From: Paenibacillus sp. Soil522
GTDB taxonomy: Bacteria > Bacillota > Bacilli > Paenibacillales > Paenibacillaceae
Length of the DNA: 64,000 nt
Assembly: GCF_001428245.1 (NCBI RefSeq)
Contig: NZ_LMRV01000055.1
Coordinates: 1-64,000, forward strand
Reading direction: 5' to 3'
Shown here: positions 1,152 to 49,306 of the stretch, piece by piece
Layout: each line of letters starts with the position of its first letter
Position numbering within the stretch: position 1 is the stretch's first letter
The notes under the pieces: generated by a model
Told to the model about the DNA's origin: nothing
The model's database searches: none
What the model saw: the letters and a program-made list of their open reading frames with translations, nothing else
Position numbers and translations under genes: made by a program

Positions 1152-1226
1152 AGGCTTATGCTTTCGAAGTACGTTTGTTCCACAAACGTAAGCTTATGCT
1201 TTCGTAGCAGGTTTGTTCCACAAACT
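1152..1226 (+). repeat. Tandem hairpin leader repeats, family A (locus 1)
   Basis: Two tandem copies of a ~37-nt unit, 1152-1188 and 1190-1226. Each begins GCTTATGCTTTCG and ends in a small hairpin GTTTG-TTCCA-CAAAC (stems 1173-1187 and 1211-1225). The second copy runs directly into the AAGGAGG ribosome binding site of the helicase gene. A related tandem pair occurs at 5566-5637 in front of ylbG, and a degenerate single copy at 17952-17990. The constant position beside the Shine-Dalgarno suggests a regulatory leader or a repeat that favours this site; function unknown. Confidence 0.7.
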
Positions 1227-1242
1227 TTTAAGGAGGAGAAGG

Positions 1243-2946
1243 ATGCACGATCTTAATGAAAGGCCATTGATCGTTCAATCGGATTTAATGGTGCTGCTTG
1301 ATGAGAGCAAGCCTTTGGCACAGCAGGCAAGAGAGAAGCTCGTTCTCTTCATGGACGCCATAAGAAGAGCAGGCTCTATACATACTTATCGCATGACGCC
1401 ATTAACGCTTTGGAATGCGGCGGCTGCGGGAATCGCAGCGGACGATATTGTCGGGTGGCTGTCGGAATACGGACGGTATGAGCTGCCTTTTCAAGCGGAG
1501 GTAATGATACGGAGGCTGATTGGCAGATACAATAAGCTCTGGCTGACGACCGATTCGGATAAGCTGGTCCTGCATGGTGATTTGACTATAATGAATGAGC
1601 TGAAAGAGCAACCCTCCATTATGAGCTGTATTACAGCACCGCTGGAGGCCGCTGCTTGGGTGCTGAACGAAAGCTGCAGAGGAGCCCTGAAGCAGGAACT
1701 GACGCGTCTTGGATATCCTGTCATTGATATGGCGGGCTATCATTCCGGCGAAGCGCTTGCCCTGCAGCTAAAGGATCGTACGTCAAGCGGACGCAAATTC
1801 GAATTGAGGGACTATCAGCAGTCTGCGGTTGAGCTCTTTTATAAGGAGGGGACGGTGCAAGGAGGCAGCGGCGTAATCGTACTGCCATGCGGAGCGGGAA
1901 AAACGATCGTTGGAATTGCTGCACTGACTCGTTTAGGCAGAGCAACGCTTATTCTCACCTCCAATACGACCTCAGTCAAGCAGTGGAAGAACGAGCTGCT
2001 AGATAAAACGTCGCTGATGGATGCGGAGGTGGGTGAGTACTGCGGCACGTTGAAGCAGGTTCGACCGGTTACCATCGCCACCTACAACATTTTAACGCAT
2101 CGAAAGTCGAAGGAGGCTCCCTTTACTCATATGAAGCTGTTCTTTGAACGGGATTGGGGGCTCATTATATACGACGAGGTGCATCTGCTGCCAGCTCCGG
2201 TATTCCGGATGACTGCGGATATACAAGCAACCCGGCGGCTCGGCTTAACGGCCACATTGGTTCGGGAGGATGGCTGCGCCGAGGATGTTTATTCCTTGAT
2301 CGGCCCGAAGCAATTTGACATGCAGTGGAAGGCGGCGGAGGCCGGCTCTCATATTGCTGCTGTTTCGTGTACAGAAATAAGGGTGCCTCTCCATAAAAAT
2401 AAGGAGCTTGTGTACGCACAGGCCAGCGCTCGTTCAAAGCTCAGATTGGCAGCTGAAAATCCGGGTAAAATCCCGGTCGTCCAGAGGCTTTTGCGTGAGC
2501 ATACAGGCAAGCCGACCCTCATTATTGGGCAATATTTGAATCAGCTGCATGAGCTGTCCAAAACGCTGTCGGCCCCCGTGCTTACCGGAGAGGTGTCCCA
2601 GCAGGAGCGGCAGCAGCTGTATGACAGCTTTAAAGCAGGAGATCTATCGGTGCTGATCGTTTCGAAGGTAGCGAATTTTGCCGTTGATCTGCCTGATGCG
2701 GCAGTCGCAATCCAGCTCTCAGGCAGCTTTGGCTCGCGGCAGGAGGAAGCGCAGCGGATTGGAAGATTATTGAGACCGAAGGCCGGTAATAATTGTGCAT
2801 GGTTTTATACGATTGTGACGGATCAAACGAAGGAAACGGAATTTGCGATGAAGAGACAACTGTTTATGCTTGAGCAGGGCTACCATTATGAGAGACTAAG
2901 CTTACCGCATGATGATTCGGGGATTGAGGAGGCTGCGGCTTTATGA
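1243..2946 (+). CDS. XPB/Ssl2-like superfamily 2 DNA helicase
   Basis: 567-aa SF2 helicase of the XPB/Rad25 type found in some bacteria. Visible motifs: Walker A LPCGAGKT (about 213-220), Walker B variant DEVH (about 311), motif III TATL followed by the VRED sequence (the RED motif typical of XPB), and motif VI QRIGRLLRPK (about 505-514). The 200-residue N-terminal part before the motor domain fits the XPB damage-recognition region. The ATG at 1243 is chosen because AAGGAGG sits 7 nt upstream; an in-frame TTG at 1213 has no such site. It overlaps the next gene by 4 nt (ATGA), so the two are probably translationally coupled. Inferred role: DNA unwinding in repair. ComFA-like helicases are the main alternative, but no cysteine cluster is present. 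Confidence 0.85.
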   Translation: MHDLNERPLIVQSDLMVLLDESKPLAQQAREKLVLFMDAIRRAGSIHTYRMTPLTLWNAAAAGIAADDIVGWLSEYGRYELPFQAEVMIRRLIGRYNKLWLTTDSDKLVLHGDLTIMNELKEQPSIMSCITAPLEAAAWVLNESCRGALKQELTRLGYPVIDMAGYHSGEALALQLKDRTSSGRKFELRDYQQSAVELFYKEGTVQGGSGVIVLPCGAGKTIVGIAALTRLGRATLILTSNTTSVKQWKNELLDKTSLMDAEVGEYCGTLKQVRPVTIATYNILTHRKSKEAPFTHMKLFFERDWGLIIYDEVHLLPAPVFRMTADIQATRRLGLTATLVREDGCAEDVYSLIGPKQFDMQWKAAEAGSHIAAVSCTEIRVPLHKNKELVYAQASARSKLRLAAENPGKIPVVQRLLREHTGKPTLIIGQYLNQLHELSKTLSAPVLTGEVSQQERQQLYDSFKAGDLSVLIVSKVANFAVDLPDAAVAIQLSGSFGSRQEEAQRIGRLLRPKAGNNCAWFYTIVTDQTKETEFAMKRQLFMLEQGYHYERLSLPHDDSGIEEAAAL

Positions 2947-4973
2947 AAATGCAGCAGCTGGCAGCTAAGCTTTCCACAGAGCATATGGCGAGCTTTATGC
3001 AGGCGCCGGCATGGCATTCAGCCAGTCAAAAGGGGCTGACATGGGCTGAGGCGGCTGTAAAGGACGGGGCTATTAAAGAGGCTGCAGCTTTGCTGACGCC
3101 ATATGCAGCGGAGGTTTTCAAGGAGTTGCTTCGTCTCTTTGCGGCTATGCCCGTTGAAGGAGAGCGGCTCATTAAAGAATTGCGGAGGCACACCGGTCTA
3201 TCAGGTGCCGAATGCCAGCATGGAATAGCAGTGCTTGAGGAGGCAGGCATTTTGTTTTCCGTGCAAAAAGTATGGGGGGAGAATCTGTATTTTACGCCGT
3301 TGGAATGCTTCACCGGATGGCAGAGGGCATTATTCCCATGCACAGCCGAACCGATATCCGTTCATGAGAGGGAAAGACTAATGAATGGCGTCATGAGGCC
3401 TTATTGCAGACCGTTGGGAAGACAGCTGTTATCTGCCTTTTCTGCTTTGGGAAGATGCGGTTTAGGTCTTACGGTTAGCGGTACGCTTCCTAAAAAAACG
3501 GTGGCCAAGCTGATGCAGGCTGTCGATATCGATGAACGCTATCTAAAAACATTCGATTTAAAATGGTCTTATCCGGACGTTTATCCTTTGACCGTGGCCT
3601 TTATTCTGGAAGCTGCGTCTGCATTTGGCTTGCTTGATGCTGCGGAAGGATCACTGAAATGGAACGAAGTGATGCTAAGCGGCTGGCTTAAGCTTGAGGA
3701 AGCAGCAAGGGAGCGTCAATTAATGAATTGGTGCCTAGGATTGCTCCTTCCTTCCGGAGCGGGAAGCGCACATTTAGCGGGGGCATTGATTGGATTGCAG
3801 GCAGGGGAATGGTATTCGGAGCGGGATATGGAAAAATGGCTGCGTGAGGCTACTGGAATGGATATGCTGACTAATGAAGGCATTACGGAGCTTGGCTGGT
3901 TCGGATTATGGCATAGCATGGGATGGCTCGAGCTTGTGGATTGTCATCAATCCGATGATAAGGAGATGTTTTTCAGATGGAAGTCTTCCGCGCCTTTGTT
4001 AAATGACAGCCAAACAGGTATCCCGGAGTCTTCTCCTTTCATAGCTGTTCAGCCGAATGGAGAGGTGATGGTTCAGCCGGAATGTCCCTTCAAGATCAGG
4101 TGGGAGCTGGAGCTGCTGGCGGAACGGAAATCGGATGAGCAGATCGCAGTCTACCGGCTGGAAGCCGCCTCGATATCCCGCGCACTGGAGCTTGGCAGAA
4201 CACGGGCGGTCATTCAGGCTTTTCTTCAGCAGTCTTCGGGCGGAGCAGCCTTACCCCCTACGGTGGAGGCGTTGTTGGAAGTATGGACCAGCCGCGCATG
4301 CCGCACTGAATTTGCGGAGGTTGTGCTGCTGCGCTGCGATAACGAAGCGATGGCGGCGATCGTCCAGAATGATGCGGCCCTTGCTCCAATGCTCCTTCAA
4401 AAGCTTGGTTCCTTAGACTTCATTGTGAATAAGTCTCAAATCAATGAAATTAAAAGCATGCTGCAGAAAGCGGGCTATCCTGCACGCAAGGCGATACAAT
4501 CAGGCGCTCGGAACGAACAACCCGGTTATCCAATTATTCATTCAGGATGTGAAGACGAAAGAGTTCTGGAAATATGCGCAACAGAAAAGACTAAAACGAC
4601 TGCACCTTCTTATATTTATGAAGCTTTTCCGCTTCACCATTTTGAACTGAATAAATATGCTGCCAGGAAAAAGCTTCAAGCCTTTTCTCAATTGGAGCAA
4701 GTGCCTGCGATGTGGACGAAGCAGCTTCGCGCTTATCACCACTCTACGAGAAAGGAGCTTATTGAACAGGCGCTGCAATGGCAAACACCGGTGCAGCTGC
4801 GAATGGATCGCGAGCTTCGTTCATTTATTCCTGAGAAGCTCGAGCAGAAGGATGGCGGCTGGGCTGTCGTTGGGCTGCTGCGGGACGAACCGCAGCGCGA
4901 GTTGATCCGGCTTACACCGGATATGTGGGAGGAAATGCGGCTGGTCATTCCCGGTCAAGGAGCACCAATATAA
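2943..4973 (+). CDS. Helicase-associated protein (Helicase_C_3 type)
   Basis: 676-aa protein without its own Walker motifs. Its sequence style (winged-helix-like repeats in the first third, FIAVQPNGEVMVQPE around residue 365, then a long region ending in a compact C-terminal domain) matches the Helicase_C_3 / XPB-Ssl2-like N-terminal domain family that accompanies XPB helicases in Firmicutes and Actinobacteria. The start overlaps the helicase stop by 4 nt, implying stoichiometric production and physical partnership. I infer that it is an accessory or loading factor for the neighbouring helicase. Family assignment is from general resemblance and context, with no catalytic motif to confirm it. 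Confidence 0.7.
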   Translation: MKMQQLAAKLSTEHMASFMQAPAWHSASQKGLTWAEAAVKDGAIKEAAALLTPYAAEVFKELLRLFAAMPVEGERLIKELRRHTGLSGAECQHGIAVLEEAGILFSVQKVWGENLYFTPLECFTGWQRALFPCTAEPISVHERERLMNGVMRPYCRPLGRQLLSAFSALGRCGLGLTVSGTLPKKTVAKLMQAVDIDERYLKTFDLKWSYPDVYPLTVAFILEAASAFGLLDAAEGSLKWNEVMLSGWLKLEEAARERQLMNWCLGLLLPSGAGSAHLAGALIGLQAGEWYSERDMEKWLREATGMDMLTNEGITELGWFGLWHSMGWLELVDCHQSDDKEMFFRWKSSAPLLNDSQTGIPESSPFIAVQPNGEVMVQPECPFKIRWELELLAERKSDEQIAVYRLEAASISRALELGRTRAVIQAFLQQSSGGAALPPTVEALLEVWTSRACRTEFAEVVLLRCDNEAMAAIVQNDAALAPMLLQKLGSLDFIVNKSQINEIKSMLQKAGYPARKAIQSGARNEQPGYPIIHSGCEDERVLEICATEKTKTTAPSYIYEAFPLHHFELNKYAARKKLQAFSQLEQVPAMWTKQLRAYHHSTRKELIEQALQWQTPVQLRMDRELRSFIPEKLEQKDGGWAVVGLLRDEPQRELIRLTPDMWEEMRLVIPGQGAPI

Positions 4974-5043
4974 TTTCTAACTATTGGCTAAGCGAATATG
5001 ATATGATAATGTAGAAAAAAGCGAATTGAAATGAGGTGGATGA

Positions 5044-5538
5044 ATGCCAACGGCTGAAGGTTTAACGGCTGTTCAGTTGGAGCAATCGCAAGGCGGCGTT
5101 TCTTCTCTCGATATGGCGTCACTGCTGCTTTGTGCTTATGAATTAGGTGATTGGATCAATCAATCGGCTGAAGTTGCCGAATATTTATATTGGAAGTCGG
5201 CTGTGAATGAAGACGATGAAGTAAAGCAAATGTCGAAACGATTCGCGAAGGCAAAGGAGCTGTTTGCCGAATGCGAACGATTTGGCCGCTTTCACCCCGA
5301 TTACAACGAAGCGAAAGACAAGGTAAAGCAAATTGAACGAGAGCTGAGCGAAATCGAAAGCGTTCGCCGCTTCAAGTTCGCGGAACAGGTCGTAGATGAT
5401 ATGCTTTACGATGTATCTCGTACCATTGCGGAGTCTGTTTCGGACAATATTAAAGTGCCCGGCAACGAAAAGGCCGGCGGCGGGGGCAGCTGCGGCAGCG
5501 GCGGTTCATGCAGTTGCGGAAGCGGCGGCTGCGGCTAA
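5044..5538 (+). CDS. ylbF: YlbF family regulator with Cys-rich tail
   Basis: 164-aa helical protein of the YlbF/YmcA family. In B. subtilis, YlbF, YmcA and YaaT form a complex that acts with RNase Y in mRNA maturation and influences competence, sporulation and biofilm formation; the complex carries Fe-S clusters. Residues 17-140 contain the family helices (LLCAYELGDWI, RFAKAKELFAECERFGRFHPDYNEAKDKVKQIE). The C-terminus is a glycine/serine linker with four cysteines in SCGSGGSCSCGSGGCG, plausible cluster ligands. The start ATG at 5044 follows GAGGTGG. ylbG follows, as in Bacillus, supporting the assignment. Confidence 0.85.
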   Translation: MPTAEGLTAVQLEQSQGGVSSLDMASLLLCAYELGDWINQSAEVAEYLYWKSAVNEDDEVKQMSKRFAKAKELFAECERFGRFHPDYNEAKDKVKQIERELSEIESVRRFKFAEQVVDDMLYDVSRTIAESVSDNIKVPGNEKAGGGGSCGSGGSCSCGSGGCG

Positions 5539-5565
5539 TTTGATGCAGAACGCGGGCATTTGGTT

Positions 5566-5637
5566 TACGCTTATGAAGCAGGCTTGCGCGCAAACCTAAG
5601 CATATGCTACGAAGTAAGGTTTGCAGTGCAAACCTTT
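5566..5637 (+). repeat. Tandem hairpin leader repeats, family A (locus 2)
   Basis: Copy 1 at about 5566-5597 (GCTTATGAAGCAGGCTTG, then CGCGCAAACCT) and copy 2 at 5598-5637 (AAGCATATGCTACGAAGTAAGG...). Copy 2 has a perfect 8-bp stem AGGTTTGC-AGT-GCAAACCT (5617-5635) and leads straight into TTTTAGGAGGG, the ribosome binding site of ylbG. The arrangement copies locus 1 at 1152-1226 in unit order and in distance to the start codon (15-17 nt), although the loop bases and copy 1 have diverged. Confidence 0.65.
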
Positions 5638-5650
5638 TAGGAGGGAAAGG

Positions 5651-5914
5651 ATGCTACCGGATCGAACGGGATATATTGTATGGGTAAGTGATTTGAAAGC
5701 GGCTAGATCACTGGAAAGATTCGGGACGGTTCATTATATGTCGAGGAAGATGCATTACGTCGTCATGTACATGAATGCGGAGCGTTCTGATGAGGCTGTG
5801 CGGCAAATGGGGAAGCTTCCGTACGTTCGTAAGATTGAACGTTCTTACCGGAATGAAATTAAGACCGAATACAGTAAAGACAGTGAAGATAAAACGAGAT
5901 TTTACAGCTTATAG
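5651..5914 (+). CDS. ylbG: YlbG family protein (DUF2129)
   Basis: 87-aa protein from the ATG at 5651 (RBS GGAGGG 5640-5645). It shows the DUF2129/YlbG pattern: GYIVWVSDLKAARSLERFG near the start, a central MHYVVMYMN strand and a basic segment YVRKIERSYR. Its function is unknown even in B. subtilis, where it sits in the same order after ylbF and before ylbH (rsmD). Here rsmD-coaD-ylbJ lie about 55 kb away. Length is normal for the family. It is probably cotranscribed with ylbF, with a 112-nt gap holding the hairpin repeats, and is closed by the terminator at 6019. Confidence 0.85.
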   Translation: MLPDRTGYIVWVSDLKAARSLERFGTVHYMSRKMHYVVMYMNAERSDEAVRQMGKLPYVRKIERSYRNEIKTEYSKDSEDKTRFYSL

Positions 5915-6018
5915 AGAGCGTGAACGGTCAGCGCCGTTAATGACGGCGAAAGTTCATAGCGCTTAAATGATAAGCAGGTGCATGAATGAAAAATATAATC
6001 AATTATTTTCATAAAACG

Positions 6019-6057
6019 CACTTCTCAGTGACGAATAACGCTGAGAAGTGTTTTTTT
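6019..6057 (+). terminator. Rho-independent terminator after ylbG
   Basis: Perfect 10-bp stem CACTTCTCAG (6019-6028) / CTGAGAAGTG (6041-6050), 12-nt loop, then seven T. Confidence 0.95.
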
Positions 6058-6107
6058 ATGCACTTATATCCATTAACTTACAAAAATGGTCTGACTTCAA
6101 TTTATTG

Positions 6108-6135
6108 TTGTATTATCGGACAATCGTGGTAAAAT
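6108..6135 (+). promoter_or_regulatory. Candidate sigma-A promoter
   Basis: TTGTAT (6108-6113), 16-bp spacer, TAAAAT (6130-6135), about 55 bp before the TTG start of the following hypothetical gene. Confidence 0.45.
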
Positions 6136-6190
6136 GGAATTAAATTCATAGTATAAAAGCCCTGGTTCCTTGGAAGGAGTAGGTTGCGCA

Positions 6191-6628
6191 TTGAAAGATA
6201 AAATGACGAGAAGGTGGAGCACATACGAGTCGTTTTATATCGATCTAGGCGATAAGAAAGTAGCGGATATCGTCATTACGAACCATGCCAAGAGTCGGTG
6301 GTTAGACCGGATCGAAAGCGAGAAAACCGGTTTTGAAGACATTGCTGAATTTCTATGGGAATGTTTGAAGCAAGGGCGGATCGAGCCCTATTACCGCAAC
6401 GAACAGGATGTCTATTTAATTGACGATGATCTCGTATTTGTTGCTGAATTTGCTGAATCACTTACGGAAACGGATATTACCGGAATCCCTTTACATAAGA
6501 TGATCATCGTAACCTTCCTGGGGCGCATGTCAGAAACCATTGAGCTTAGGGATCTTAAGTCCTATTATTCATGGCTTCGTCATTCTCGGCGCATGACTCT
6601 TGTAAAGAGCAGCAGAAAACGAAAATAA
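6191..6628 (+). CDS. Hypothetical protein
   Basis: 145-aa protein if translation begins at the TTG at 6191, which has GGAAGGAG (6172-6179) upstream; an ATG at 6203 is the alternative. I do not recognise the family. It begins with a predicted beta-rich segment (IVITNHAKSRWLDRIES), an acidic middle (YRNEQDVYLIDDDLVFVAEF) and a basic C-terminus (MTLVKSSRKRK). No signal peptide or membrane segment. The NHAKSRWLDRI stretch resembles small toxin-like or antirestriction folds only superficially, so no function is claimed. It is a single-gene transcript bounded by terminators at 6019 and 6658. Confidence 0.65.
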   Translation: MKDKMTRRWSTYESFYIDLGDKKVADIVITNHAKSRWLDRIESEKTGFEDIAEFLWECLKQGRIEPYYRNEQDVYLIDDDLVFVAEFAESLTETDITGIPLHKMIIVTFLGRMSETIELRDLKSYYSWLRHSRRMTLVKSSRKRK

Positions 6629-6657
6629 ATTATTATTACTATACAATAATGAGCCGA

Positions 6658-6690
6658 GCGTGCAATCTGAATAAGATTGCACGCTTTTTT
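6658..6690 (+). terminator. Rho-independent terminator
   Basis: Stem GCGTGCAATCT (6658-6668) / AGATTGCACGC (6674-6684), 5-nt loop, six T. Ends the hypothetical gene before it. Confidence 0.95.
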
Positions 6691-6758
6691 GATACGGTTG
6701 TAAGATTCTGTACAAGCTTTGTAGTATAATAAGCACCAGAAGAAAGGATGATTGGTTC

Positions 6759-7670
6759 ATGGCGCTTAATTTTCATCAGCTGCACATATTTTGTACGGTT
6801 GCGGAACGCGGAAGTTTTTCAGCGGCGGCGCAATCATTACATATGACTCAGCCGGCCGTTACAATGCAAGTACAGTCACTGGAGGACTATTTCGGCACGA
6901 AGCTGCTGCAGCGCTCTACGAAACGGATTGAGCTGACGGAAGCTGGAAGGGCGCTTATGCCTTACGCTCAGCGCAGCATCGATTTAATTCGCGATACGGA
7001 CCAGGCGATGTCCGCTTTCACGAAGCAGTTGAAGGGAAGACTTCAGCTCGGCTCGAGCTTAACGATAGGCGAATACATTTTGCCGCGCTTGCTCGGTCCG
7101 TTCGGTCAGGAGTATCCGCATATCTCAATAAGCATGAAAGTAATGAACACCTCGCAAATCATGGAAGATATTTTAACTCATCAGCTAAATTTTGGTTTGA
7201 TCGAAGCTCCGGTTAATCATCCGGATATGCATATGGAAGCGGTTATGAGTGACGAGCTTAGATTGATTGTTTCCAAATCGCATCCGTTAGCTGAGCGTTC
7301 TTCCGTCACTTTAGAGGAAGTTATGAAATTTCCCTTCGTGCTCCGTGAGCAGGGCTCGGGGACTAGACTTGTTATGGAAGAGCAGCTGAGGAGGAAAAAT
7401 ATCGATCCCGCTTCGATGAAAATCGTAATGGAGCTGGGAAGCACGGGCGCTGTGAAATCGGCTGTTGAGGCTGGCTTAGGCATTTCCTTCGTCTCTTCCT
7501 CATCCGTAAAGCATGAGGTGGCGCTCGATTTAATCCGGATGATCAAAGTGTCGGATTCCAAGTTTCAGCGACAGTTTTATTCCATTTATTTGAAATCGGC
7601 TATATTGCCGATATCAGCCGTAACCTTCCTAACCTTTCTGAGAGAGAGGGATTTACAGCAATGGCTCTAA
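6759..7670 (+). CDS. LysR family transcriptional regulator
   Basis: 303-aa LysR-type regulator. The N-terminal winged helix-turn-helix covers about 1-65 (FHQLHIFCTVAERGSFSAAA, MTQPAVTMQVQSLE, GTKLLQRSTKRIELTEAG). The periplasmic-binding-like effector domain follows from about 90 to 300 (RLQLGSSLTIGEYILPRLL, FVLREQGSGTR, AGLGISFVS). It is closest in feel to the CysB/CbbR/YeiE group, but the effector cannot be read from sequence. A TATAAT box lies at 6725-6730. Its last 10 nt overlap the start of the PHP gene, so the two are cotranscribed; LysR proteins often control neighbours, but control of the PHP gene is only a guess. Confidence 0.9.
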   Translation: MALNFHQLHIFCTVAERGSFSAAAQSLHMTQPAVTMQVQSLEDYFGTKLLQRSTKRIELTEAGRALMPYAQRSIDLIRDTDQAMSAFTKQLKGRLQLGSSLTIGEYILPRLLGPFGQEYPHISISMKVMNTSQIMEDILTHQLNFGLIEAPVNHPDMHMEAVMSDELRLIVSKSHPLAERSSVTLEEVMKFPFVLREQGSGTRLVMEEQLRRKNIDPASMKIVMELGSTGAVKSAVEAGLGISFVSSSSVKHEVALDLIRMIKVSDSKFQRQFYSIYLKSAILPISAVTFLTFLRERDLQQWL

Positions 7671-8548
7671 TGAATGGTCGTGCTGATTTGCACACGCATA
7701 CAACGGCTTCAGATGGCATGCAATCTCCGGCAGAGAACGTCCGATTGGCTAAAGCGGCGGGACTTTCGGCGGTCGCCATCACGGATCATGATACGGTCGC
7801 GGGCGTAGCGGAAGCGATGCTGGAGGGGGAGCGCCTCGGCATAACGGTTGTACCGGGTGTTGAGATGAGCACGGTTGCAAACGGGACGGATATTCATATT
7901 CTTGGTTATTACACGAATAATGATGATGTAAAGTGGCTGACGCGTCTCGCAAGCCTGCGCGGAATAAGAGATCAACGGAATGAGATGATCGTAAATAAGC
8001 TGCGGGAGCTCGGCATTGCTCTAACAATGGATGAGGTCATAGCTGCCGCACATGGAGAAAGTGCGATGGAATCGCAGAAAGCAGCTGACGCCAGCATCGG
8101 TCGCCCGCATATTGCTGCGGCGCTAATCCGCAAGGGTATCGTCTCTAATATGAAGGAAGCGTTCGATCGTTATTTAAAGACAGGTGCAGCGGCTTATGTC
8201 AATCCTCCAAGGCTGAATCCGTTTGAGGCCATTGATTGGATACGGGAGGCCGGCGGCACAAGCGTTATTGCGCATCCCGGCTTATACGGCAATGATTCAT
8301 TAGTAGAGGAGATCATTCGTTACGGCGTTCAGGGGATCGAAGTGCTCCATTCTGACCATGGGCCCGAAGAAGAGCGGCGCTATGCTGGGCTCGCAGCGAG
8401 TTATCATTTGATTGCTACGGGCGGCTCGGATTTTCATGGTTCGCGTTCGGGAGTCGTTTTTCATGGTGCCATAGGCAGTCGTACAGTTCATGCAAATGTG
8501 CTGCAGCAGCTGGAGCCTTCTTGGAGAAGACAGCAATATGACGCGTAA
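7661..8548 (+). CDS. PHP-domain phosphoesterase (RNase AM/YciV-like)
   Basis: 295-aa PHP metal-dependent phosphoesterase. Metal ligands are visible in HTHTTASDG (about 8-16), ITDHDTV (about 38-44), PGVEMST (about 62-68), IAHPGLYG (about 205-212) and the C-terminal GGSDFHG (about 250-256). The layout matches the YciV/TrpH group, whose E. coli member removes nucleotides from 5' ends and hydrolyses 3',5'-nucleoside bisphosphates. The start ATG at 7661 lies inside the last codons of the LysR gene, giving translational coupling. A bidirectional terminator follows at 8621. Confidence 0.85.
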   Translation: MALMNGRADLHTHTTASDGMQSPAENVRLAKAAGLSAVAITDHDTVAGVAEAMLEGERLGITVVPGVEMSTVANGTDIHILGYYTNNDDVKWLTRLASLRGIRDQRNEMIVNKLRELGIALTMDEVIAAAHGESAMESQKAADASIGRPHIAAALIRKGIVSNMKEAFDRYLKTGAAAYVNPPRLNPFEAIDWIREAGGTSVIAHPGLYGNDSLVEEIIRYGVQGIEVLHSDHGPEEERRYAGLAASYHLIATGGSDFHGSRSGVVFHGAIGSRTVHANVLQQLEPSWRRQQYDA

Positions 8549-8620
8549 ATCCAATTCGATTTATGAAGCAGCGATACGCGGAGCATTGTTTCCTGATTGC
8601 GGAAATGGCAAGAGCTGCAT

Positions 8621-8676
8621 AAAAAAATCAAAAACACGGCTTCTTATTCCAGGTGAATGAGAGACCGTGTTTTTTG
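8621..8676. terminator. Bidirectional terminator between PHP gene and rqcH
   Basis: AAAAACACGG (8630-8639) pairs with CCGTGTTTTTT (8665-8675); part of the loop (CTTATTC/GAATGAG) also pairs. A-tract on one side and T-tract on the other let it serve both convergent genes. Confidence 0.9.
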
Positions 8677-8763
8677 ATGTTTAAGCTCGTATGAGCTGCT
8701 GGCTATTACATAAGATTGTTGAACGCATTTTTTATTTTTGGCATAAGTTTAAACTTCGGCCGT

Positions 8764-10533: not shown

Positions 10534-10622
10534 GGTGTATGGTTCCTCGCTTCCTTGGTTAGTCTTTCTCTATCATGCCATAGATGAGACAAAAACTTAA
10601 GTCCTTCATGGGATATTTTGTG

Positions 10623-10661
10623 GGCTGTCCGAATACATTTACCCTATAAAGGCTGTCCGAA
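10623..10661 (+). repeat. Direct repeats flanking a possible promoter
   Basis: GGCTGTCCGAA occurs at 10623-10633 and again at 10651-10661, 28 bp apart, flanking TATAAA (10645-10650), upstream of the Ca2+ ATPase gene. The spacing of nearly three helical turns and the position suggest an operator. Chance duplication is possible. Confidence 0.35.
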
Positions 10662-10713
10662 GGGCCGGCGCCGTTGCTGCTTGGCTCGGTATATTACGGG
10701 AGGGAGTTATACC

Positions 10714-13497
10714 ATGGAACAAATGAAATGGCATCAAATGGGGATAAGTGAGTTGGTTGACGCGTTAGTCAGCTCCCCGGATCAAGGGCTGACGACGTCG
10801 GAAGCGGCGCAGCGGCTGGAAAAACACGGACGAAATGAATTGAGGGAGGGCAAGCGCGTCTCGCCGATCTTATTGTTCCTCAATCAATTTAAAGATTTTA
10901 TGGTGCTTGTATTGATGGGAGCGACATTAATTTCCGGCTTGCTGGGAGAATATTTAGACGCGATTACGATTGTCGCTATTATTGTAATTAACGCGGTACT
11001 TGGCTTCGTTCAGGAATTTCGGGCGGAACGCTCGCTGCGGGCGCTAAAGGAATTGTCTGCCCCGACGGCCAAAGTTATTCGCGGAGGAGAATTGCTGACC
11101 GTCCCTGCTAAGGAGCTCGTTGCAGGTGATCTTATTTACCTGGAGAGCGGAGACCGGATTCCGGCTGACGTGCGTCTGCTCGAAGCGAACAGCTGCTATG
11201 TAGAGGAATCTGCTTTGACGGGAGAATCGGTGCCGGTCGGGAAGCATGCTGCGGCTATCTGCGATGATGATCTGCCTTTAGGTGATCAGCGAAACATTGG
11301 ATTCATGGGCACGATGCTCACGCGGGGCACGGCAAAAGCGGTTGTCATTCGTACGGGCATGGGTACGGAAATGGGTAAAATCGCGGGTCTTATCGAGCAG
11401 ACGGAATCGATGGAGACGCCGCTGCAGCATCGGCTGGAGCAGCTTGGCAAAATTTTAATCGTCGTTGCGATAGGATTGACGATCATGGTTGTCGCAGCAG
11501 GTATTTTGCACGGCCAGCCAGCATACGGCATGTTTCTGGCCGGTGTTAGCTTGGCGGTTGCGGCCATTCCGGAGGGACTGCCGGCTATCGTGACAATCGC
11601 GCTCGCGCTGGGCGTACAGCGGATGATCAAACGGAAGGCAATCGTACGCAAGCTGCCGTCTGTCGAGACGCTCGGCTGCGCATCGGTTATTTGCTCGGAC
11701 AAAACGGGGACGCTGACTCAAAATAAAATGACGGTTACGCATGTATGGATAAGCGGGAGGCAGCTTGAAGTAAGCGGTGAAGGATATGATCCGACAGGCG
11801 CTATTTATGAAGATGGCAACGCGCTTGATATCAAGCATGATTTATCCGTTAAACGTCTTCTCCAGGTGAGTGCCTTATGCAATAATGCTCAGCTGGTGAA
11901 GGTGGAACCGGCGGATAAGGGCAAACGGAAAAATAAGGAAGTGCAGGAGGAATGGCTGCTTAAGGGAGATCCGACAGAGGGTGCGCTAGCGGTGCTGTCA
12001 GCCAAGCTGGGCTCCTCCGCCAAATCGCTGGAGCAGCTTTACAGACGGGAGAAGGAGTTTCCCTTTGATTCGGAGCGGAAGCGGATGTCAGTCGTGGTTT
12101 CTCATCAAGGCGGACGTCTCATCTGTACGAAGGGAGCTCCTGATTTGCTGATGGATCATTGCTCCTATGTTCTCTGGGAGGGAAAGGTTGTGCCTTTCAC
12201 GGCGACGCTTAAACGCAAATGCGCGGAAGCGGGCGAGCTTATGGCACAATCCGCGCTTCGGGTGCTCGGCCTTGCCTACCGTGATTTACGCGTCAGCGAT
12301 GCTTGCGAGACGGAAAGCGATGCGGAATGCCAGCTTGTATTCGTAGGTCTGACCGGCATGATCGATCCGCCGCGCCGCGAAGTGAAGGAAGCGATCGCCA
12401 CTTGCAGACGCGCGGGCATTAAGACGGTTATGATAACCGGCGATCATCAACTGACGGCCGAAGCGATTGCCGGGCAGCTTGGCATTATGCCGCGCGGCGG
12501 CATCGCAACGAGCGGCAGACAGCTGGAGGCGATGAGCGACGAGCAGCTTGACCGGCTGGTGGATAACATTTACGTTTACGCACGCGTCTCGCCAGAGCAT
12601 AAATTGCGGATCGTTAAGTCGCTTCAGCGCCAAGGGCATGTCGTTGCGATGACCGGCGACGGCGTTAATGACGCTCCGGCGATTAAAGCGGCTGATATCG
12701 GCATCGCAATGGGCATTACCGGAACGGATGTATCGAAGGAAGCCTCAGCGCTCGTGCTGAGCGACGACAACTTCTCGACGATAGTAGCCGCTATTGAGGA
12801 AGGGCGGGGCATTTACGAAAATATTCGCAAATTTATCCGTTATTTATTAGCATCCAACGTCGGAGAAATACTCGTAATGTTTCTCGCGATGATGGCGGGG
12901 CTGCCGCTGCCGCTGGTGCCTATCCAAATTCTTTGGGTCAACCTGGTTACGGACGGCTTGCCGGCGATGGCGCTCGGCGTCGATCAGGCGGAGAAGGATT
13001 TGATGCAGCAAAAGCCGCGTTCGGCCAAAGAAAGTATTTTCTCCCGCAGGCTCGGCTGGAAAATCATTAGCCGAGGAATATTGATCGGGGTGTGTACGCT
13101 AGGTGCTTTCTGGATTTCATTGCATGACGCGCCCAGCAGCGCAGCGCAGCTGATGAAGGCACAGACGGTAGCATTCGCAACACTCGTCATGGCGCAGCTC
13201 ATTCACGTATTCGACTGCAGAAGCTCGCGTTCTATTTTTCACCGCAATCCGTTTCAGAATAAATATTTGGTGCTCGCCGTGTTCTCATCGCTGCTGCTTA
13301 TGATTGGCGTGCTTTATATCGAGGCGCTGCAGCCCATTTTCAAAACCGTTCCGCTTAATTTCCGCGAATGGTGTCTCGTATTTGTAGCCGCAGGAATTCC
13401 TACTTTCGTAATGGGAATTGGCAGCGTGCTGGGCACCTCGAAGAAAACGAAGACCAAAACAAAATGGCCGATCGGACCGCAAACCGCGGCAAGATAA
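10714..13497 (+). CDS. Calcium-translocating P-type ATPase (SERCA type, YloB-like)
   Basis: 927-aa P2A-type ATPase predicted to pump Ca2+ out of the cytoplasm. Family landmarks in order: N-terminal cation ATPase domain, actuator loop [10 protein letters not shown]4 motif [15 protein letters not shown] (ion-binding), phosphorylation motif [11 protein letters not shown], nucleotide-binding domain KGAPDLLM, hinge [22 protein letters not shown], and C-terminal membrane helices with [13 protein letters not shown]. The ATG at 10714 follows GGGAGGG; an in-frame upstream GTG/TTG region lacks a ribosome binding site. In B. subtilis, yloB is linked to sporulation calcium handling. Length and motifs are complete. 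Confidence 0.93.
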
Positions 13498-13618
13498 CAA
13501 AAAAATGCAAATGATGATACAAATTATGAATAGCCTTTCTTCTTGCTTTGCGGTATGCTATTAGGAATAAATAATAGCTTTATTATACCTAGAGATGCGG
13601 CAAGGAGAGGGCAAACAG

Positions 13619-14449
13619 ATGAATTTCACAAAAATGCACGGTTTAGGAAATGACTTTGTCGTTATAGCAGGCGAGCAGCAGCTTCCTGATCATGTGGCGG
13701 ATTTGGCAATCCGGCTTTGCAATCGATTTTTTGGCATCGGCGCTGATGGACTTGTCTATATTTTACCTTCGGAGATCGCAGATTTCCGTATGCGCATTAT
13801 TAATTCCGATGGTTCAGAGGCAGAGCAATGCGGCAATGCCATCCGCTGCGTAGCTAAATATGTTTACGATAATGGCTTAACCGATAAAGAAGTAATTACG
13901 ATCGAAACGTTAGGCGCCGGCGCCCAGAAGGTGCAGCTCACTGTTTCGGATGGCGAAGTATCATCTGTACGTGTTGATATGGGAGAGCCGATTTTGAATG
14001 GCCTTCAGGTGCCGACTACAATCGATGCCGAACAGGTTATCGAGCATCCGATCGAGGTGGATGGACATGAATTCCGTTTCACCGCCGTATCGATGGGTAA
14101 CCCGCACTGCGTCATTTACGTAGACGATGCTGTACACTTTGATCTGAGCACATGGGGACCGAAGCTTGAAACGCATCCGTTATTTCCCCGCAAAATCAAT
14201 GTTGAGTTTGTGACGGTTAACTCCCGTACGCATACCGATATGCGCGTATGGGAACGCGGCGCGGGCCCTACGCTAGCTTGCGGCACCGGCGCATGCGCAA
14301 CGCTTGTCGCTTCGGTGTTGACCGGCGCGACAGACCGGACCGCTACCGTATCGCTCAAAGGCGGCGATCTTCTCATTGAGTGGAATGAGTCCGATAATCA
14401 TGTTTATATGACTGGTCCGGCTGCGGTATCGTTCCGCGGCACGCTTTAA
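13619..14449 (+). CDS. dapF: Diaminopimelate epimerase
   Basis: 276-aa DapF converting LL- to meso-diaminopimelate, the last shared step of lysine and peptidoglycan precursor synthesis. The two catalytic cysteines sit in EQCGNAIRC (about residues 69-77) and ACGTGACAT (about 222-230). The N-terminus MNFTKMHGLGNDFVV is canonical. The ATG at 13619 has AAGGAGAGGG 9 nt upstream, so a longer reading from 13595 is rejected. It is 30 nt ahead of the homocysteine methyltransferase/MTHFR gene and probably cotranscribed with it, grouping amino acid biosynthesis inside the ylo block. Confidence 0.95.
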   Translation: MNFTKMHGLGNDFVVIAGEQQLPDHVADLAIRLCNRFFGIGADGLVYILPSEIADFRMRIINSDGSEAEQCGNAIRCVAKYVYDNGLTDKEVITIETLGAGAQKVQLTVSDGEVSSVRVDMGEPILNGLQVPTTIDAEQVIEHPIEVDGHEFRFTAVSMGNPHCVIYVDDAVHFDLSTWGPKLETHPLFPRKINVEFVTVNSRTHTDMRVWERGAGPTLACGTGACATLVASVLTGATDRTATVSLKGGDLLIEWNESDNHVYMTGPAAVSFRGTL

Positions 14450-14479
14450 GAGCAACGTAAGATGGGTGGAATGAATATA

Positions 14480-16354
14480 ATGAAACCGGATTTGCGGGAA
14501 GCGCTCCAGCAGCGTATCTTGACCGGGGACGGCGCGATGGGAACCTATCTGTATCAGATGGGGTTCCCTGTCGGCGTTTCTTATGAGGAATTTAATACAC
14601 TGCGTCCCGATGTGATCGAGAACATTCATCGCCGCTACTACGAAGCCGGGGCGCGTGTAATCGAGACGAATACGTTTTCGGCCAATTTTGAGAAGCTTTC
14701 GAAATATGGCTTAGAGGGCGAGATGGATGCTATTAACCGTGCCGGCGTGCGCGCAGCCCGTGCTGCGATCGGTGATGATGCCTACGTCGTAGGAGCGGTT
14801 GGCTCCATTCGCGATGGTAAATTAAAAAATTTGCGAACGGCAAAAGTAATCGAAGCTTATCAGCGTCAAATGCATGCGCTTCTTGATGAGGGCGTGGACG
14901 GCATTTTGCTTGAAACGTTCTATGATCTCGATGAGATGCTCCTTGCGCTTCGGATTGCAAGAGCTGCTTCCGACGTTCCTGTTATTTGCCAGTTTGCGGT
15001 TGAGGATGTCGGCCGCACGCAGGACGGGAACGGGATGAAGGGAGCCTTTGATCAGCTTCAGGAAGCCGGTGCTGACGTGGTCGGTTTTAATTGCCGCAGC
15101 GGCCCTACCGGCATTATGAGGGCGATCGATTCGATAGCGGGACCAGTCGGTTTACCGTTATCGGTATATCCGAACGCAGGTATACCGGACTATATAGACG
15201 GCAAATATACGTATTCCGCGGGCCCTGAGTATTTTGCGGAGACAGCCCAGCGCTTCGCCGACCGCGGCGCACGCCTAATCGGCGGCTGCTGCGGAACGAC
15301 GCCGGAGCATATTAAGGCAATTGCTGCGGCGCTTGATGGCTATATCCCTCAAATCGGACAACCTGCGGCAGCTGTGGCAGCGGTAGAGAAGATTGTCATA
15401 AAGCCGAATGAGAAGCCGGCTGCAGAAGACAAGGCACCGCAAAAGCTTGCTGTACAGGAGCCGTCAATCGTTGATCTGGTGCAGAAACGCCATACCGTCA
15501 TTGTTGAGCTGGATCCGCCTCGTGATCTGGATATCCGCAAGTTTATGGACGGCGCTGCCGCGTTGAAGGAAGCGAAGGCGGATGCGGTTACGATGGCTGA
15601 CAATTCGCTTGCGGTTACGCGCATGAGCAACATTGCGCTTGCAGCGCTTGTACAGGAGAAGGTAGGCATACGACCGCTCGTTCATATCGCATGCCGCGAC
15701 CGCAACTTGATCGGGACGCAGTCTCATATGATGGGGTTGGACGCGCTCGATATCGACCACGTACTGGCTGTAACCGGAGACCCTGCACGGTTCGGCGACT
15801 TGCCGGATTCAAGCTCGGTATACGATCTTACCTCTTTCGAAATGATCCGGATGATTAAGCAGCTGAATGACGGAACGGCCTTCTCGGGCAAGCCGCTCAA
15901 GCAAAAGGCGAAGTTCGTCGTAGGTGCTGCGTTTAATCCGAACGTCAAGTATTTGGATAAGGCTGTACAGCGTCTTGAACGCAAAATATCGTCAGGTGCG
16001 GACTATATTATGACGCAGCCCATTTATGATCCGGACCTTATTGAACGAGTCGCGGAAGCGACGAAGCACCTATCCGTGCCTGTATTTATCGGTATTATGC
16101 CGCTTGCCAGCGGACGTAACGCTGAATATTTGCATAACGAGGTGCCGGGCATTCAGCTATCCGATGAGGTTCGGCAGCGGATGTCGGGTCTCGAAGGGGA
16201 AGCGGGCCGGGCGGAAGGCGTGCAGATCGCGAAGGAGCTGCTTGATGCCGCTTTGCCGTATTTTAAAGGGATCTATTTAATTACGCCGTTTATGTTCTAT
16301 GAAATGGGTGTTCAGCTCACGGAATATGTGTGGCGGAAGACAGAGCGTATGTAG
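14480..16354 (+). CDS. Bifunctional homocysteine S-methyltransferase / methylenetetrahydrofolate reductase
   Basis: About 624-aa YitJ-type fusion. The N-terminal half (1-290) is a zinc-dependent homocysteine S-methyltransferase: GDGAMGTYL, zinc ligands in GFNCRSG and IGGCCGTTPEHI. The C-terminal half (about 335-620) is a MetF-type flavin TIM barrel: HTVIVELDPPRDLD, HIACRDRN, LAVTGDPARFGD, YIMTQPIYD. Together they can reduce methylene-THF and make methionine. Start is uncertain: the ATG at 14480 has GGTGGA 9 nt upstream; in-frame ATGs lie at 14462 and 14471. No S-box or T-box leader is visible, unlike B. subtilis yitJ, consistent with a location behind dapF. Confidence 0.92.
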   Translation: MKPDLREALQQRILTGDGAMGTYLYQMGFPVGVSYEEFNTLRPDVIENIHRRYYEAGARVIETNTFSANFEKLSKYGLEGEMDAINRAGVRAARAAIGDDAYVVGAVGSIRDGKLKNLRTAKVIEAYQRQMHALLDEGVDGILLETFYDLDEMLLALRIARAASDVPVICQFAVEDVGRTQDGNGMKGAFDQLQEAGADVVGFNCRSGPTGIMRAIDSIAGPVGLPLSVYPNAGIPDYIDGKYTYSAGPEYFAETAQRFADRGARLIGGCCGTTPEHIKAIAAALDGYIPQIGQPAAAVAAVEKIVIKPNEKPAAEDKAPQKLAVQEPSIVDLVQKRHTVIVELDPPRDLDIRKFMDGAAALKEAKADAVTMADNSLAVTRMSNIALAALVQEKVGIRPLVHIACRDRNLIGTQSHMMGLDALDIDHVLAVTGDPARFGDLPDSSSVYDLTSFEMIRMIKQLNDGTAFSGKPLKQKAKFVVGAAFNPNVKYLDKAVQRLERKISSGADYIMTQPIYDPDLIERVAEATKHLSVPVFIGIMPLASGRNAEYLHNEVPGIQLSDEVRQRMSGLEGEAGRAEGVQIAKELLDAALPYFKGIYLITPFMFYEMGVQLTEYVWRKTERM

Positions 16355-16371
16355 CTAAATACGATAGAATG

Positions 16372-16412
16372 AATGCGAAAAACAGCCTTTTTGGCCTGTT
16401 TTCGCATTTTCG
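16372..16412 (+). terminator. Rho-independent terminator
   Basis: AATGCGAAAAACAGCC pairs with GGCCTGTTTTCGCATT with one small bulge; downstream TTTCGCTTG. Closes the dapF-MTHFR transcript. Confidence 0.85.
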
Positions 16413-16602
16413 CTTGTTCGTTTGTGAAAAATCAATTAATATGAAGCATAGATACAGTTGCCACATATATGCAGCATGGCAAGGACAGACTGCCCAAATG
16501 CAGCTGCGGCATATGCCGATGCATGCCCCGGGACGTATGTCCGGCACTTTTTTCGTCAACAATAGTGCAGTAGTTCTGTCGGTATTTGGCAAGAACGCAA
16601 AC
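16413..16602. other. Gene-free gap upstream of remA
   Basis: About 280 bases lie between the terminator and remA. In B. subtilis this slot carries yloC (YicC family endoribonuclease); no such reading frame exists here. Palindromes GGCATATGCC and GGAC-GTAT-GTCC (about 16506-16545) are followed by TTTTTT, possibly a second weak terminator. Confidence 0.5.
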
Positions 16603-16630
16603 TTGTCGTATTCACATTTATAAATATAAT
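16603..16630 (+). promoter_or_regulatory. Sigma-A promoter for remA-gmk-rpoZ
   Basis: TTGTCG (16603-16608), 16-bp spacer, consensus TATAAT (16625-16630), 64 bp before the remA start. Confidence 0.65.
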
Positions 16631-16694
16631 AGGGTATTTGATCATTTGAAGGCAGATGCACAAGGGAAGGCCGTAGGCGAAGGAGGAACCAGGC

Positions 16695-16955
16695 TTGGCT
16701 ATCAAACTAATTAATATCGGATTCGGGAACATTGTATCAGCAAACCGCATTATTTCAATCGTAAGCCCGGAATCAGCTCCGATTAAGAGAATCATTCAAG
16801 AGGCGCGCGACCGGCATATGCTCATTGATGCGACATACGGACGCCGCACGCGCGCTGTTATTATTACAGATAGCGATCATGTGATTTTATCGGCTGTTCA
16901 GCCGGAGACGGTTGCGCACCGGTTGTCCACTAAGGACGACGATAACGACGAATAG
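16695..16955 (+). CDS. remA: Extracellular matrix regulator RemA
   Basis: 86-aa DUF370/RemA protein. In B. subtilis, RemA is a ring-forming DNA-binding activator of biofilm matrix operons and osmoprotection genes. The sequence matches the family along its length: [21 protein letters not shown] at the N-terminus and [23 protein letters not shown] in the middle. Translation begins at TTG 16695 with AGGAGG 8 nt upstream; no ATG is available. It is the first gene of a remA-gmk-rpoZ operon, 13 nt before gmk, matching ylzA-gmk-rpoZ in Bacillus. Confidence 0.93.
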
Positions 16956-16968
16956 TACGGGGAGTAAT

Positions 16969-17586
16969 ATGGATAAGGGATTGCTAATTGTATTGTCCGG
17001 CCCTTCGGGGGTTGGCAAGGGGACGGTTTGTTCGGTTCTTCGTAATAAGGTTCCTGAGCTGGTGTATTCTGTGTCGGCAACGACCAGGCTGCCGCGTCAG
17101 GGTGAAGTAGACGGCGTCAATTATTTTTTCAAAAGCAAAGAGCAGTTCCAGGACATGATCGCGCGAGACGCGCTGCTGGAGCATGCCGAATATGTTGGTA
17201 ATTACTACGGAACACCGCGTGAATTCGTAGAACGCACATTAGCGAGCGGCAAGGATGTTATTTTGGAGATCGAAGTGCAGGGAGCGCTTAAGGTGAAACA
17301 AAAGTTTCCCGAAGGCATTTTCGTATTTCTATTGCCTCCGTCCTTGGATGAGTTAAAGCAGCGAATTACCGGCCGTGGCACGGAATCATTGGATACGATC
17401 AATAATCGTATGTCTGTCGCCGTTGATGAGATGAATTTGCTCGGTCACTACGACTATGCGGTATTGAATGATGAGATAGATGCTGCCTGCGATCGTATTC
17501 GAAGCATCATGATTGCAGAGCATTGCCGCAGAGACAGATATTTGCCCTACGTTTCGGGAATGGTTGCTGCAATTGAGAAAGCATGA
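16969..17586 (+). CDS. gmk: Guanylate kinase
   Basis: 205-aa GMP kinase (ATP + GMP to ADP + GDP), essential for guanine nucleotide supply. P-loop [12 protein letters not shown] (about 7-18), GMP-binding [19 protein letters not shown] (about 37-55), and [15 protein letters not shown] are canonical. The ATG at 16969 is preceded by GGGGAG; longer in-frame readings overlap remA and lack a ribosome site. It lies between remA and rpoZ in the standard order. Confidence 0.96.
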
Positions 17587-17602
17587 GTGAGGAGAATGTA
17601 CG

Positions 17603-17812
17603 ATGTTATATCCGTCCATTGACGAAATGGTGAAAAAAGTTGACAGTAAATACACGCTTGTCGTAGCAGCTTCCAGACGTGCCCGCATGCTTCGCAACGG
17701 AGACAAGTCGGAGCTTAGAAACCCGCGCTCCCGCAAGTTTGTGGGTGTTGCGCTTGAAGAAATTTACGGCGATATTCTCCAAGTGGAAAACCTCTCAACA
17801 AAAGAGGATTAA
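17603..17812 (+). CDS. rpoZ: DNA-directed RNA polymerase omega subunit
   Basis: 69-aa omega subunit, which stabilises beta' in RNA polymerase. MLYPSIDEMVKKVDSKYTLVVAASRRARML is the typical N-terminus for Bacilli, followed by LRNPRSRKFVGVALEEIYGD. It begins 16 nt after gmk with GTGAGGAG as RBS and ends at a terminator (17837). Confidence 0.95.
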   Translation: MLYPSIDEMVKKVDSKYTLVVAASRRARMLRNGDKSELRNPRSRKFVGVALEEIYGDILQVENLSTKED

Positions 17813-17836
17813 TCGATTACCGATCATAGCAAAGAA

Positions 17837-17883
17837 ACAACGGGGTGCATACTGGCGACAGTATTGCGCTCCGTTTTCTTTTC
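17837..17883 (+). terminator. Terminator after rpoZ
   Basis: AACGGGGTGCATACT pairs with AGTATTGCGCTCCGTT (mismatched near the middle), followed by TTCTTTTC. Confidence 0.8.
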
Positions 17884-17951
17884 CCGAGCAATAAGGGATA
17901 CAAAAGGCGCTTGCCATTTGGTAAACTATTTGAGGTGGAAAGGGGCGGCTT

Positions 17952-17990
17952 GCTTACGAAGCTGCTTTCTTTCGGAAACCTGGGAGGAGG
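17952..17990 (+). repeat. Degenerate hairpin leader, family A (locus 3)
   Basis: GCTTACGAAG ... AAACCT ... AGGAGG matches the family A frame seen at 5598-5645 (GCTACGAAG ... AAACCT ... AGGAGG) with nearly the same spacing. The stem is weaker here (TTTC/GAAA). It again abuts the ribosome binding site of the next gene. Confidence 0.4.
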
Positions 17991-17996
17991 GGGAAT

Positions 17997-18179
17997 ATGG
18001 ACCCTATATTGTTTGGGATTATTTTTTTGGTCATTTCCATGCTTTTGCTGTCGTTCGTTATACGGGGTGCTATTGACTCATCCAAATTGACTAAACAGAT
18101 GGAGACGCTAAATAGTGAGTTTCAAATGCTCAGAAAAGAAATAAGTGAAAATAAACATATCGTTGACAAAAGGGTGTAA
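17997..18179 (+). CDS. Small single-pass membrane protein
   Basis: 60 aa from the ATG at 17997 (RBS GGGAGGAGG). Residues 3-24 (PILFGIIFLVISMLLLSFVI) form one transmembrane segment; the cytoplasmic tail (SSKLTKQMETLNSEFQMLRKEISEN) looks like a short coiled coil. No family recognised. It may be a membrane anchor or scaffold peptide. The base composition is more AT-rich than in the genes around it. A coding-like stretch in another frame follows (18205-18300). Confidence 0.7.
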   Translation: MDPILFGIIFLVISMLLLSFVIRGAIDSSKLTKQMETLNSEFQMLRKEISENKHIVDKRV

Positions 18180-49228: not shown

Positions 49229-49306
49229 TGATAATCGTTTTAGAGAAAAACTAGCATAATGTGCGGGTTTTGCTATACAATTGATGGTGTTGACGAACCG
49301 AATATG

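Follow-up and report, generated by a model that had tools for sequence, protein, structure and literature searches.

Several described systems resemble, each in part, the element that we report here. REP/RAYT repeats (GTAG- and CGTC-tagged) are likewise short palindromes of 20-40 bp, present in many copies, mostly intergenic and single or grouped, and they too have a tag ahead of the stem, which in our units is GTAG/GAAG-like. Short dispersed repeats such as REPs are usually encountered close to gene 3' ends. For REPs, PMC3733652 describes a place close to the 3' end of the gene upstream and a variable distance to the gene downstream. The units described here are not mainly near 3' ends but stand mostly 12-22 nt ahead of a start codon, and their tag is not fixed (GAAG, GATG or GTAG, ~1-3 nt from the stem by eye). 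MITE-like repeats are non-coding, dispersed sequences, often beside genes and co-transcribed, with terminal inverted repeats of 15-30 bp (PMC3733652). Such repeats, among them bcr1 of Bacillus cereus, RUP, NEMIS and ERIC, share with our units a non-coding nature, dispersal and a frequent place next to genes; in contrast, the unit here consists of a single hairpin that has a linker on one side and often recurs in tandem, and no terminal inverted repeats were noticed in it by eye.

In Bacillus, the aprE, gsiB and erm leaders carry stabilising 5' hairpins next to strong ribosome-binding sites (RBSs). The likeness to our units lies in structure close to the RBS, which in those leaders alters mRNA life or translation, but they are single leaders, whereas the unit belongs to a dispersed, homologous, tandem family. 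The ribosomal-protein leaders and riboswitches of Rfam are likewise structured leader RNAs ahead of genes, and features of such cis-regulatory leaders are present here, namely sense placement 5' of genes and covarying structure (relatedness not controlled). At gathering level, Rfam 15 finds in the window, that is, in the whole stretch of 64,000 nucleotides from Paenibacillus sp. Soil522 analysed here, only a ylbH leader and a TPP riboswitch, both away from the units; at 16 loci (14 of the long form described below, plus L092 and L226), a search up to E 5 returns five matches, none of which comes near gathering level. The first-pass annotation of this DNA knew of no named family that fits, and these searches agree with it; nor did searches of open-access literature list a title or abstract that deals with such an element (subscription papers lie outside that scope). 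Overall, the sequence looks like a leader element dispersed in many copies through the Paenibacillaceae, a hairpin unit of ~40 bases, often head to tail, that has no name.

Architecture and copies of the unit

The unit spans ~38-42 nt. A conserved linker, AAGCnnATGCTTACGAAGYn, leads into a hairpin of ~7-9 bp, exemplified by AGTTTTGC-nnn-GCAAAACT, and in the consensus of the leader units a few T or A and then AGGAGG follow, with the 3' foot of the hairpin a few nt 5' of the Shine-Dalgarno sequence (SD). The SD letters adjoining the unit differ among copies. A micro-ORF in the linker (ATG CTT ACG AAG TAG) was considered and set aside, its ATG and TAG not being kept among copies.

Copies were sought in the source genome (G000; 6.4 Mb in 120 contigs) with two models from which the SD was left out: R1, seeded with 5 units, of which the window supplied three, and R2, seeded with 14 units, all from outside it. 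Because the R1 seed holds three window units, R2 is the fair test of the window sites. R1 gave 70 rows at E 10 and R2 gave 75 at E 3; 57 rows of the two lists clustered into 51 loci, 34 strong and 17 weak, with further array units, opposite-strand palindrome shadows and weak rows (E > ~1.5) left out of the clusters. Most copies read in G000 are of this short form. Units occur there singly or in tandem (2 or 3 units each at 16 of the 30 loci with well-scored units), and longer arrays occur elsewhere, with up to six units listed in G019. Tandem units are 87% alike within a locus and 72% alike between loci, and in only 9 of the 16 arrays do the units resemble one another more closely than they resemble the best unit of any other locus.

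Within the window (Table 1), the independent R2 recovers sites 1 and 2, and dozens more copies stand in the genome and its relatives; the two sites are real members of a family, as the first-pass annotation had supposed. It had also put the end of the hairpin 15-17 nt ahead of the start codon, and the measured distances are 15 nt at site 1, within that range, and 14 nt at site 2, close to it. The third copy that it had listed fares worse: the exact core 11-mer TGCTTACGAAG is there with an SD behind it, but the stem is broken, R1 gives E 2.3 over the window, the R2 list for the window lacks the site, and R2, run on the site by itself with filters off, scores it at 8.8 bits. At best, it is a decayed copy.

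Table 1. Positions in the window of the leader units and of neighbouring or otherwise named features
Feature	Position	Strand	Remarks
Site 1, upstream tandem unit	1152..1189	+	Linker GGCTTATGCTTTCGAAG and hairpin ACGTTTG-TTCCA-CAAACGT; R2 E 1.3e-6, not in R2 seed
Site 1, SD-proximal unit	1190..1228	+	R2 E 1e-6; R1 E 3.3e-11, R1 seed member
Site 1, proximal stem	1209-1216 with 1220-1227	+	Loop 1217-1219; pairing by eye
SD (AGGAGG) of XPB-like helicase gene	1231..1236	+	Start codon 1243, ORF to 2946
ORF ahead of ylbG	5044-5538		Presumably ylbF-like, from its place
Site 2, upstream degenerate unit	5561..5597	+	R2 E 0.006
Site 2, SD-proximal unit	5598..5637	+	R2 E 4.7e-8, not in R2 seed; R1 E 5.3e-9 (to 5636), R1 seed member
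Site 2, proximal stem	5616-5624 with 5628-5636	+	Loop 5625-5627; pairing by eye
SD (AGGAGG) of ylbG	5639..5644	+	Start codon 5651; product matches DUF2129
69-aa ORF upstream of possible decayed copy	17603-17812		Taken by us to be rpoZ-like
Possible decayed single copy	17951..17982	+	Ahead of 60-aa ORF 17997-18179
TPP riboswitch (RF00059)	49300-49413		Rfam; ordinary
ylbH leader (RF00516)	60583-60676		Rfam; ~55 kb away from ylbG

The first 400 aa of the XPB-like helicase score 531 bits against repair_heli_XPB, under the cut-off of 610. The frame ahead of ylbG ends in a Cys/Gly-rich tail (GGGGSCGSGGSCSCGSGGCG), and similar coding letters precede ylbG in many of the relatives read; metal binding by this tail is a possible role.

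Placement and turnover at ribosome-binding sites

Where do the units stand with respect to genes? A same-strand SD and start codon lie within the 90 nt examined at 47 of the 51 clusters in G000, and within 25 nt at 43 of them (32 of the 34 strong loci and 11 of the 17 weak ones); a comparable test applied to random positions of the window succeeds at 424 of 4000. The enrichment ahead of starts that the first-pass annotation had put forward as a test is evident. Over the 47 loci, the median distance from the unit end to the start codon is 15 nt. At one strong exception, C24:163375, a truncated further unit stands between; at the other, C101:5901, no gene start follows, and the copy resembles the non-leader repeats described below. 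By a mechanical count, a same-strand open frame of at least 90 codons ends no more than 60 nt upstream at 21 of the 47 loci, which speaks against these copies acting as promoters. In both G000 and Paenibacillus prosopidis, a copy stands between ribE and the gene before it, which from context we take to be ribD.

The genes behind the copies had been called unrelated, and the domain matches, from scans that covered part of the G000 targets, are indeed of diverse kinds. NCBIfam models match riboflavin synthase, biotin ligase, RuvC, L27, FxsA, YqfC, PRPP synthetase (a second gene for which sits elsewhere in G000), a ParB-family protein, RapZ, L25, methionyl aminopeptidase, PhoU, NirD and an S1-domain protein, with a PspA/LiaH-like protein below cut-offs; Pfam models match COX1, an M16 peptidase, DUF2129/YlbG, ArsB, a histone-deacetylase domain, a YugN-like protein, methionine gamma-lyase and a laccase-like protein; and one further target is presumably gltX, named from its N-terminus only. 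The functions range over recombination, translation, respiration, sporulation and transport, with no evident theme. In other genera, the recurrent targets include housekeeping genes that we take, from their N-termini, to be pgk, atpD, atpG, fba, sdhA, rpmJ and gltX, and a target in G019, of the source genus, is by the same assumption HU; such recurrence would fit a tuning of output. Some genes carry a unit in more than one genus, among them prs, gltX, the M16 peptidase gene, sdhA, atpG and rpmJ. The 48 leaders from other genera in which a start was read include three that stand ahead of orthologues of G000 targets (prs, gltX and the M16 peptidase gene), a number that seems higher than expected from random placement.

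At any one gene, the copies come and go between close species. Leaders were read in 30 genomes for rapZ, in 30 for ylbG, and in 14 of the 30 genomes searched for the prs paralogue, a set that includes some leaders of the other paralogue. Ahead of prs, G000 has a unit and G007, G020 and G183 have none, with proteins 88-91% identical; ahead of rapZ, G000 and G183 have a unit and G007 and G020 have none; and ahead of ylbG there are two units in G000 and two by eye (one scored) in G007, while G020 has four scored units and G183 lacks the element. A joined query of 44 N-termini brought in 126 orthologous leaders from G007, G020 and G183, which were scored with both models, and one gene without comparable orthologues was dropped to leave 43 loci. 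Filled leaders number 22 of 43 in G020, 10 of 42 in G007 and 6 of 41 in G183, with weak ones numbering 1, 3 and 1, respectively, and at 15 of the 43 loci no copy was detected in any of the three; "empty" here means not detected and covers decayed copies too. This patchy presence rules out strict orthologous conservation of the copies.

Thirteen of the 83 empty cells, from 9 loci (six of them strong hits; the weak ones are C1_202872, C28_110879 and C55_157369), align with flanks at least 60% identical. In 12 of these 13 alignments, a gap of 39-82 nt ends within ~20 nt 5' of an SD common to both alleles, and a filled allele is longer than its empty counterpart by about one to two units. Window site 1, for example, reads CTCTGTTT, two units and AAGGAGG, compared with CTGTTTGAGGAGG in G183, and the prs paralogue provides another such pair; in the thirteenth alignment, that of C66_128692 in G183, the upstream unit alone is missing. 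Target-site duplications, looked for by eye in the 13 alignments, are not consistently seen, and divergence is too great to exclude one of 2-4 nt. A different kind of change is found ahead of rapZ in G021 (L152), where the loop of the SD-proximal stem AAGTTTTGC/GCAAAACTT is interrupted by ~100 nt of other sequence while both arms persist, the 3' arm beside the SD.

What might move such a sequence? The TTAC and the GAAG/GTAG before the hairpin suggested RAYT/IS200-IS605 mobilisation, a candidate that we reject for these genomes, since Y1_Tnp (PF01797) has no match in seven of eight genomes, the source included, and several of those seven hold tens of copies; G145 alone has the family. In that genome, two Y1 transposase matches stand at L198 and L199, one of them with two in-frame stops. 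A phage or plasmid origin likewise found no match at the sensitivity used, either in viral contigs (two exact unit patterns) or in plasmids and phages (one 47-nt query each, E 0.01).

Could the units then be purely selfish short repeats, inserted at the SD or at some co-located feature, of no benefit to the gene, so that their position would reflect targeting alone? Filled and empty alleles that differ by a unit or two shortly 5' of a shared SD, the high turnover between species whose proteins are ~90% identical, the likeness of tandem units and the presence of a related core in the non-leader repeats are all what such a repeat would give. However, the SD letters vary and point to no single target word, and some genes carry the unit in more than one genus; the Y1 transposase is absent in 7 of 8 genomes, and the viral contigs, plasmids and phages give no match, in searches that would miss diverged copies. 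The stem, to which we now turn, also counts against selfishness alone, and we regard this alternative as unlikely, although it has to be taken seriously.

Constraint on the hairpin and a proposed mechanism

In 33 of the 38 filled orthologous pairs (five weak-stem loci were left out), the two stem arms are identical at 240/272 and 244/272 positions (0.88 and 0.90), compared with 507/660 (0.77) in the linker, 90/120 (0.75) in the loop and 806/1155 (0.70) in the flank; the corresponding values are 0.84 for the tail plus SD and 0.90 for the first 15 coding bases. These figures are inflated, in that both orthologues had to pass a model holding linker and stem. Among 263 stem pairs, 226 are unchanged. 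Both bases differ yet still pair in 11, and both differ without pairing in 3; a change on one side preserves pairing in 6 and breaks it in 13, and 4 pairs are gapped. The prs stem is GGTTTGC/GCAAACC in G000 and GAATTGC/GCAATTC in G058.

For covariation, 111 leaders (43 from G000 itself, 38 filled orthologues and 30 chosen elsewhere) were reduced to 76 distinct copies by dropping 29 without the linker core, 4 without the T/A-run anchors and 2 duplicates. The second pair outside the T-run, which is A-T in 37 copies, G-C in 22, G-T in 4 and T-A in 3, is paired in 66 of the 76, against a shuffle mean of 48.9, and none of 5000 shuffles, which ignore relatedness, reaches 66. The first pair also stands above its shuffles (2 of 5000 as high), whereas the third shows no covariation in the 76 copies (683 of 5000). 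The 14 units of the R2 seed alone give weaker signs, with 2 pairs changed on both sides. The first-pass annotation had read compensated stem changes from the window; inside the window there is little support for them, but the genome-wide comparison bears them out, and the covariation check that it had proposed comes out in favour of the stem, in the second pair as in the 11 compensated against 3 uncompensated changes. Since the arms outlast the linker, loop and flank and also covary, it seems to be the hairpin, rather than the linker, that is retained, presumably as RNA. Folding energy is unexceptional, with z from -0.16 to -1.75 in the five leaders tested.

Based on these observations, we propose that the unit is a proliferating, tandem-expanding leader hairpin that is kept as RNA and would tune mRNA decay or translation, a reading to which we assign a probability of about 0.5. 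The earlier description of a mobile or selected 5'-UTR element suits the same data: gain and loss, sense placement 5' of the SD and covarying stems all fit it. In this model, new units are added shortly 5' of an existing SD, as the filled and empty sites show, by some copying process, and arrays would then grow locally after arrival, to judge from the likeness of neighbouring units. Once a unit has landed, selection would keep the hairpin as RNA, a step that arm conservation and covariation support, as the linker drifts towards background. Most likely, the hairpin would serve as a mark just 5' of the RBS and influence mRNA decay or the loading of 30S subunits, perhaps by impeding nucleases that attack the leader, such that the protein level is tuned and the length of the array acts as a dial on output. 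A related idea, that the hairpin insulates the SD by keeping it unpaired, is not supported: over 32 loci, the predicted SD accessibility is 0.41 for the native leader, 0.39 with the unit shuffled and 0.47 with the unit deleted (p 0.51 and 0.22), and is thus not raised.

Spread across the family and what the element may mean

The model search of the full genome and its relatives that had been suggested yields, beyond the 51 loci of G000, matches at E 0.001 in 25 of the 25 genomes searched in the genus, source included, and in 2 of 15 genomes of the same order; with stricter filters and capped counts, a match at E 1e-4 occurs in 147 of 197 Paenibacillaceae genomes and 16 of 19 genera. An SD-free model finds copies across genera down to E 2.5e-13, and an exact pattern taken from the unit matches one contig each in the relatives P. 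prosopidis and P. harenae. We read 70 loci in other genomes, comprising 50 from the search lists and 20 picked copies with an enlarged loop (51-68 nt span) and leaving out further units of arrays already represented. At 53 of the 70, an SD and start lie within 32 nt. The 17 others are 12 non-leader repeats, two upstream array units (L353 and L373) and three remaining loci (L071, L083 and L085), of which L083 is followed by TAGGAGG.

The non-leader repeats (L079, L070, L081, L089, L090, L074, L076, L075, L084, L087, L345 and L349) share the 40-nt core, made up of TATGCTTACGAAG and a stem of the GTTTTC/GAAAAC type, and they are embedded in longer stretches that can fold and are not followed by a gene start; L084 lies within a 558-codon open frame and may be intragenic. 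Since G172 has 22 matches at E 0.001, of which three were read, the class may be larger than seen. The leader unit may have arisen from these repeats or given rise to them, and their presence in g19, g20 and g26 counts against a purely leader-bound family. The first-pass annotation had held that copies found equally in intergenic 3' regions, or in random orientation relative to genes, would speak against its reading; in G000, position and orientation are far from random, whereas the 12 non-leader loci of g19, g20 and g26 go some way towards such a pattern.

A long form measures 65-68 nt in 20 aligned copies and up to 71 nt elsewhere (L356-L374 and L226; G069, G128, G177, G145, G019 and G007), and a longer-loop form is also found in G183 and at a few weak G000 loci. 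Inside the long form, the letters are partly conserved, and its loop may contain an inner helix. Three helices drawn by hand on the same 20-copy alignment pair in 90.4% of cells, with a covariation score above all 500 shuffles; the inner helix pairs in 73.4% of cells only, and RNAalifold does not predict it from these copies. Possibly, the long form is the full structured RNA and the short unit a reduced form of it. Does this make the element a cis-regulatory RNA that answers a protein or ligand, with the genes behind it as a regulon and the long form as the full receptor? The partly conserved inner letters in six genomes and the well-paired, covarying drawn structure point that way, as do the tandem units, given that tandem binding sites are common in leader systems that answer ligands or proteins. 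We nonetheless consider it improbable: the target genes have no evident theme, presence at any single gene is patchy, the inner helix is the weak part of the structure, and most copies read in G000 are short.

Much less probable still is a transcription attenuator or weak terminator ahead of the genes. A short T run does lie between stem and SD at the window sites, but the stems are A/T-rich, the T tails are short and the SD follows within a few nt; with a terminator defined as a stem with at least 3 G-C pairs and then at least 5 T in 8, no intrinsic terminator is called at site 1 or site 2, where shuffles expect 0.4 and 0.6. Chance or convergent hairpins ahead of SDs, with no common origin, are next to negligible as an explanation, for although hairpins of 7-9 bp are common and the five leaders fold no better than shuffles, the ~20-nt linker outside the stem is common to copies across genera and already contradicts it.

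We return to the proposal of a spreading leader hairpin that is kept as RNA. In its boldest version, which we offer tentatively and hold to be possible rather than probable, the unit would be a mobile non-coding element of a new kind, addressed to translation starts throughout the family with no recognised transposase, and its hosts would keep the hairpins as interchangeable expression-tuning parts whose unit number varies by species. Such a family-wide repeat would raise a further question: how does a non-coding sequence find SDs? The filled and empty orthologue pairs are suited to direct tests of SD-side hairpins in Gram-positive bacteria, and the units may supply leader parts for use in Paenibacillus. 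More generally, a repeat that is added to RBSs, with its stem kept and its unit number varying among closely related species, would naturally give rise to changes in gene expression.
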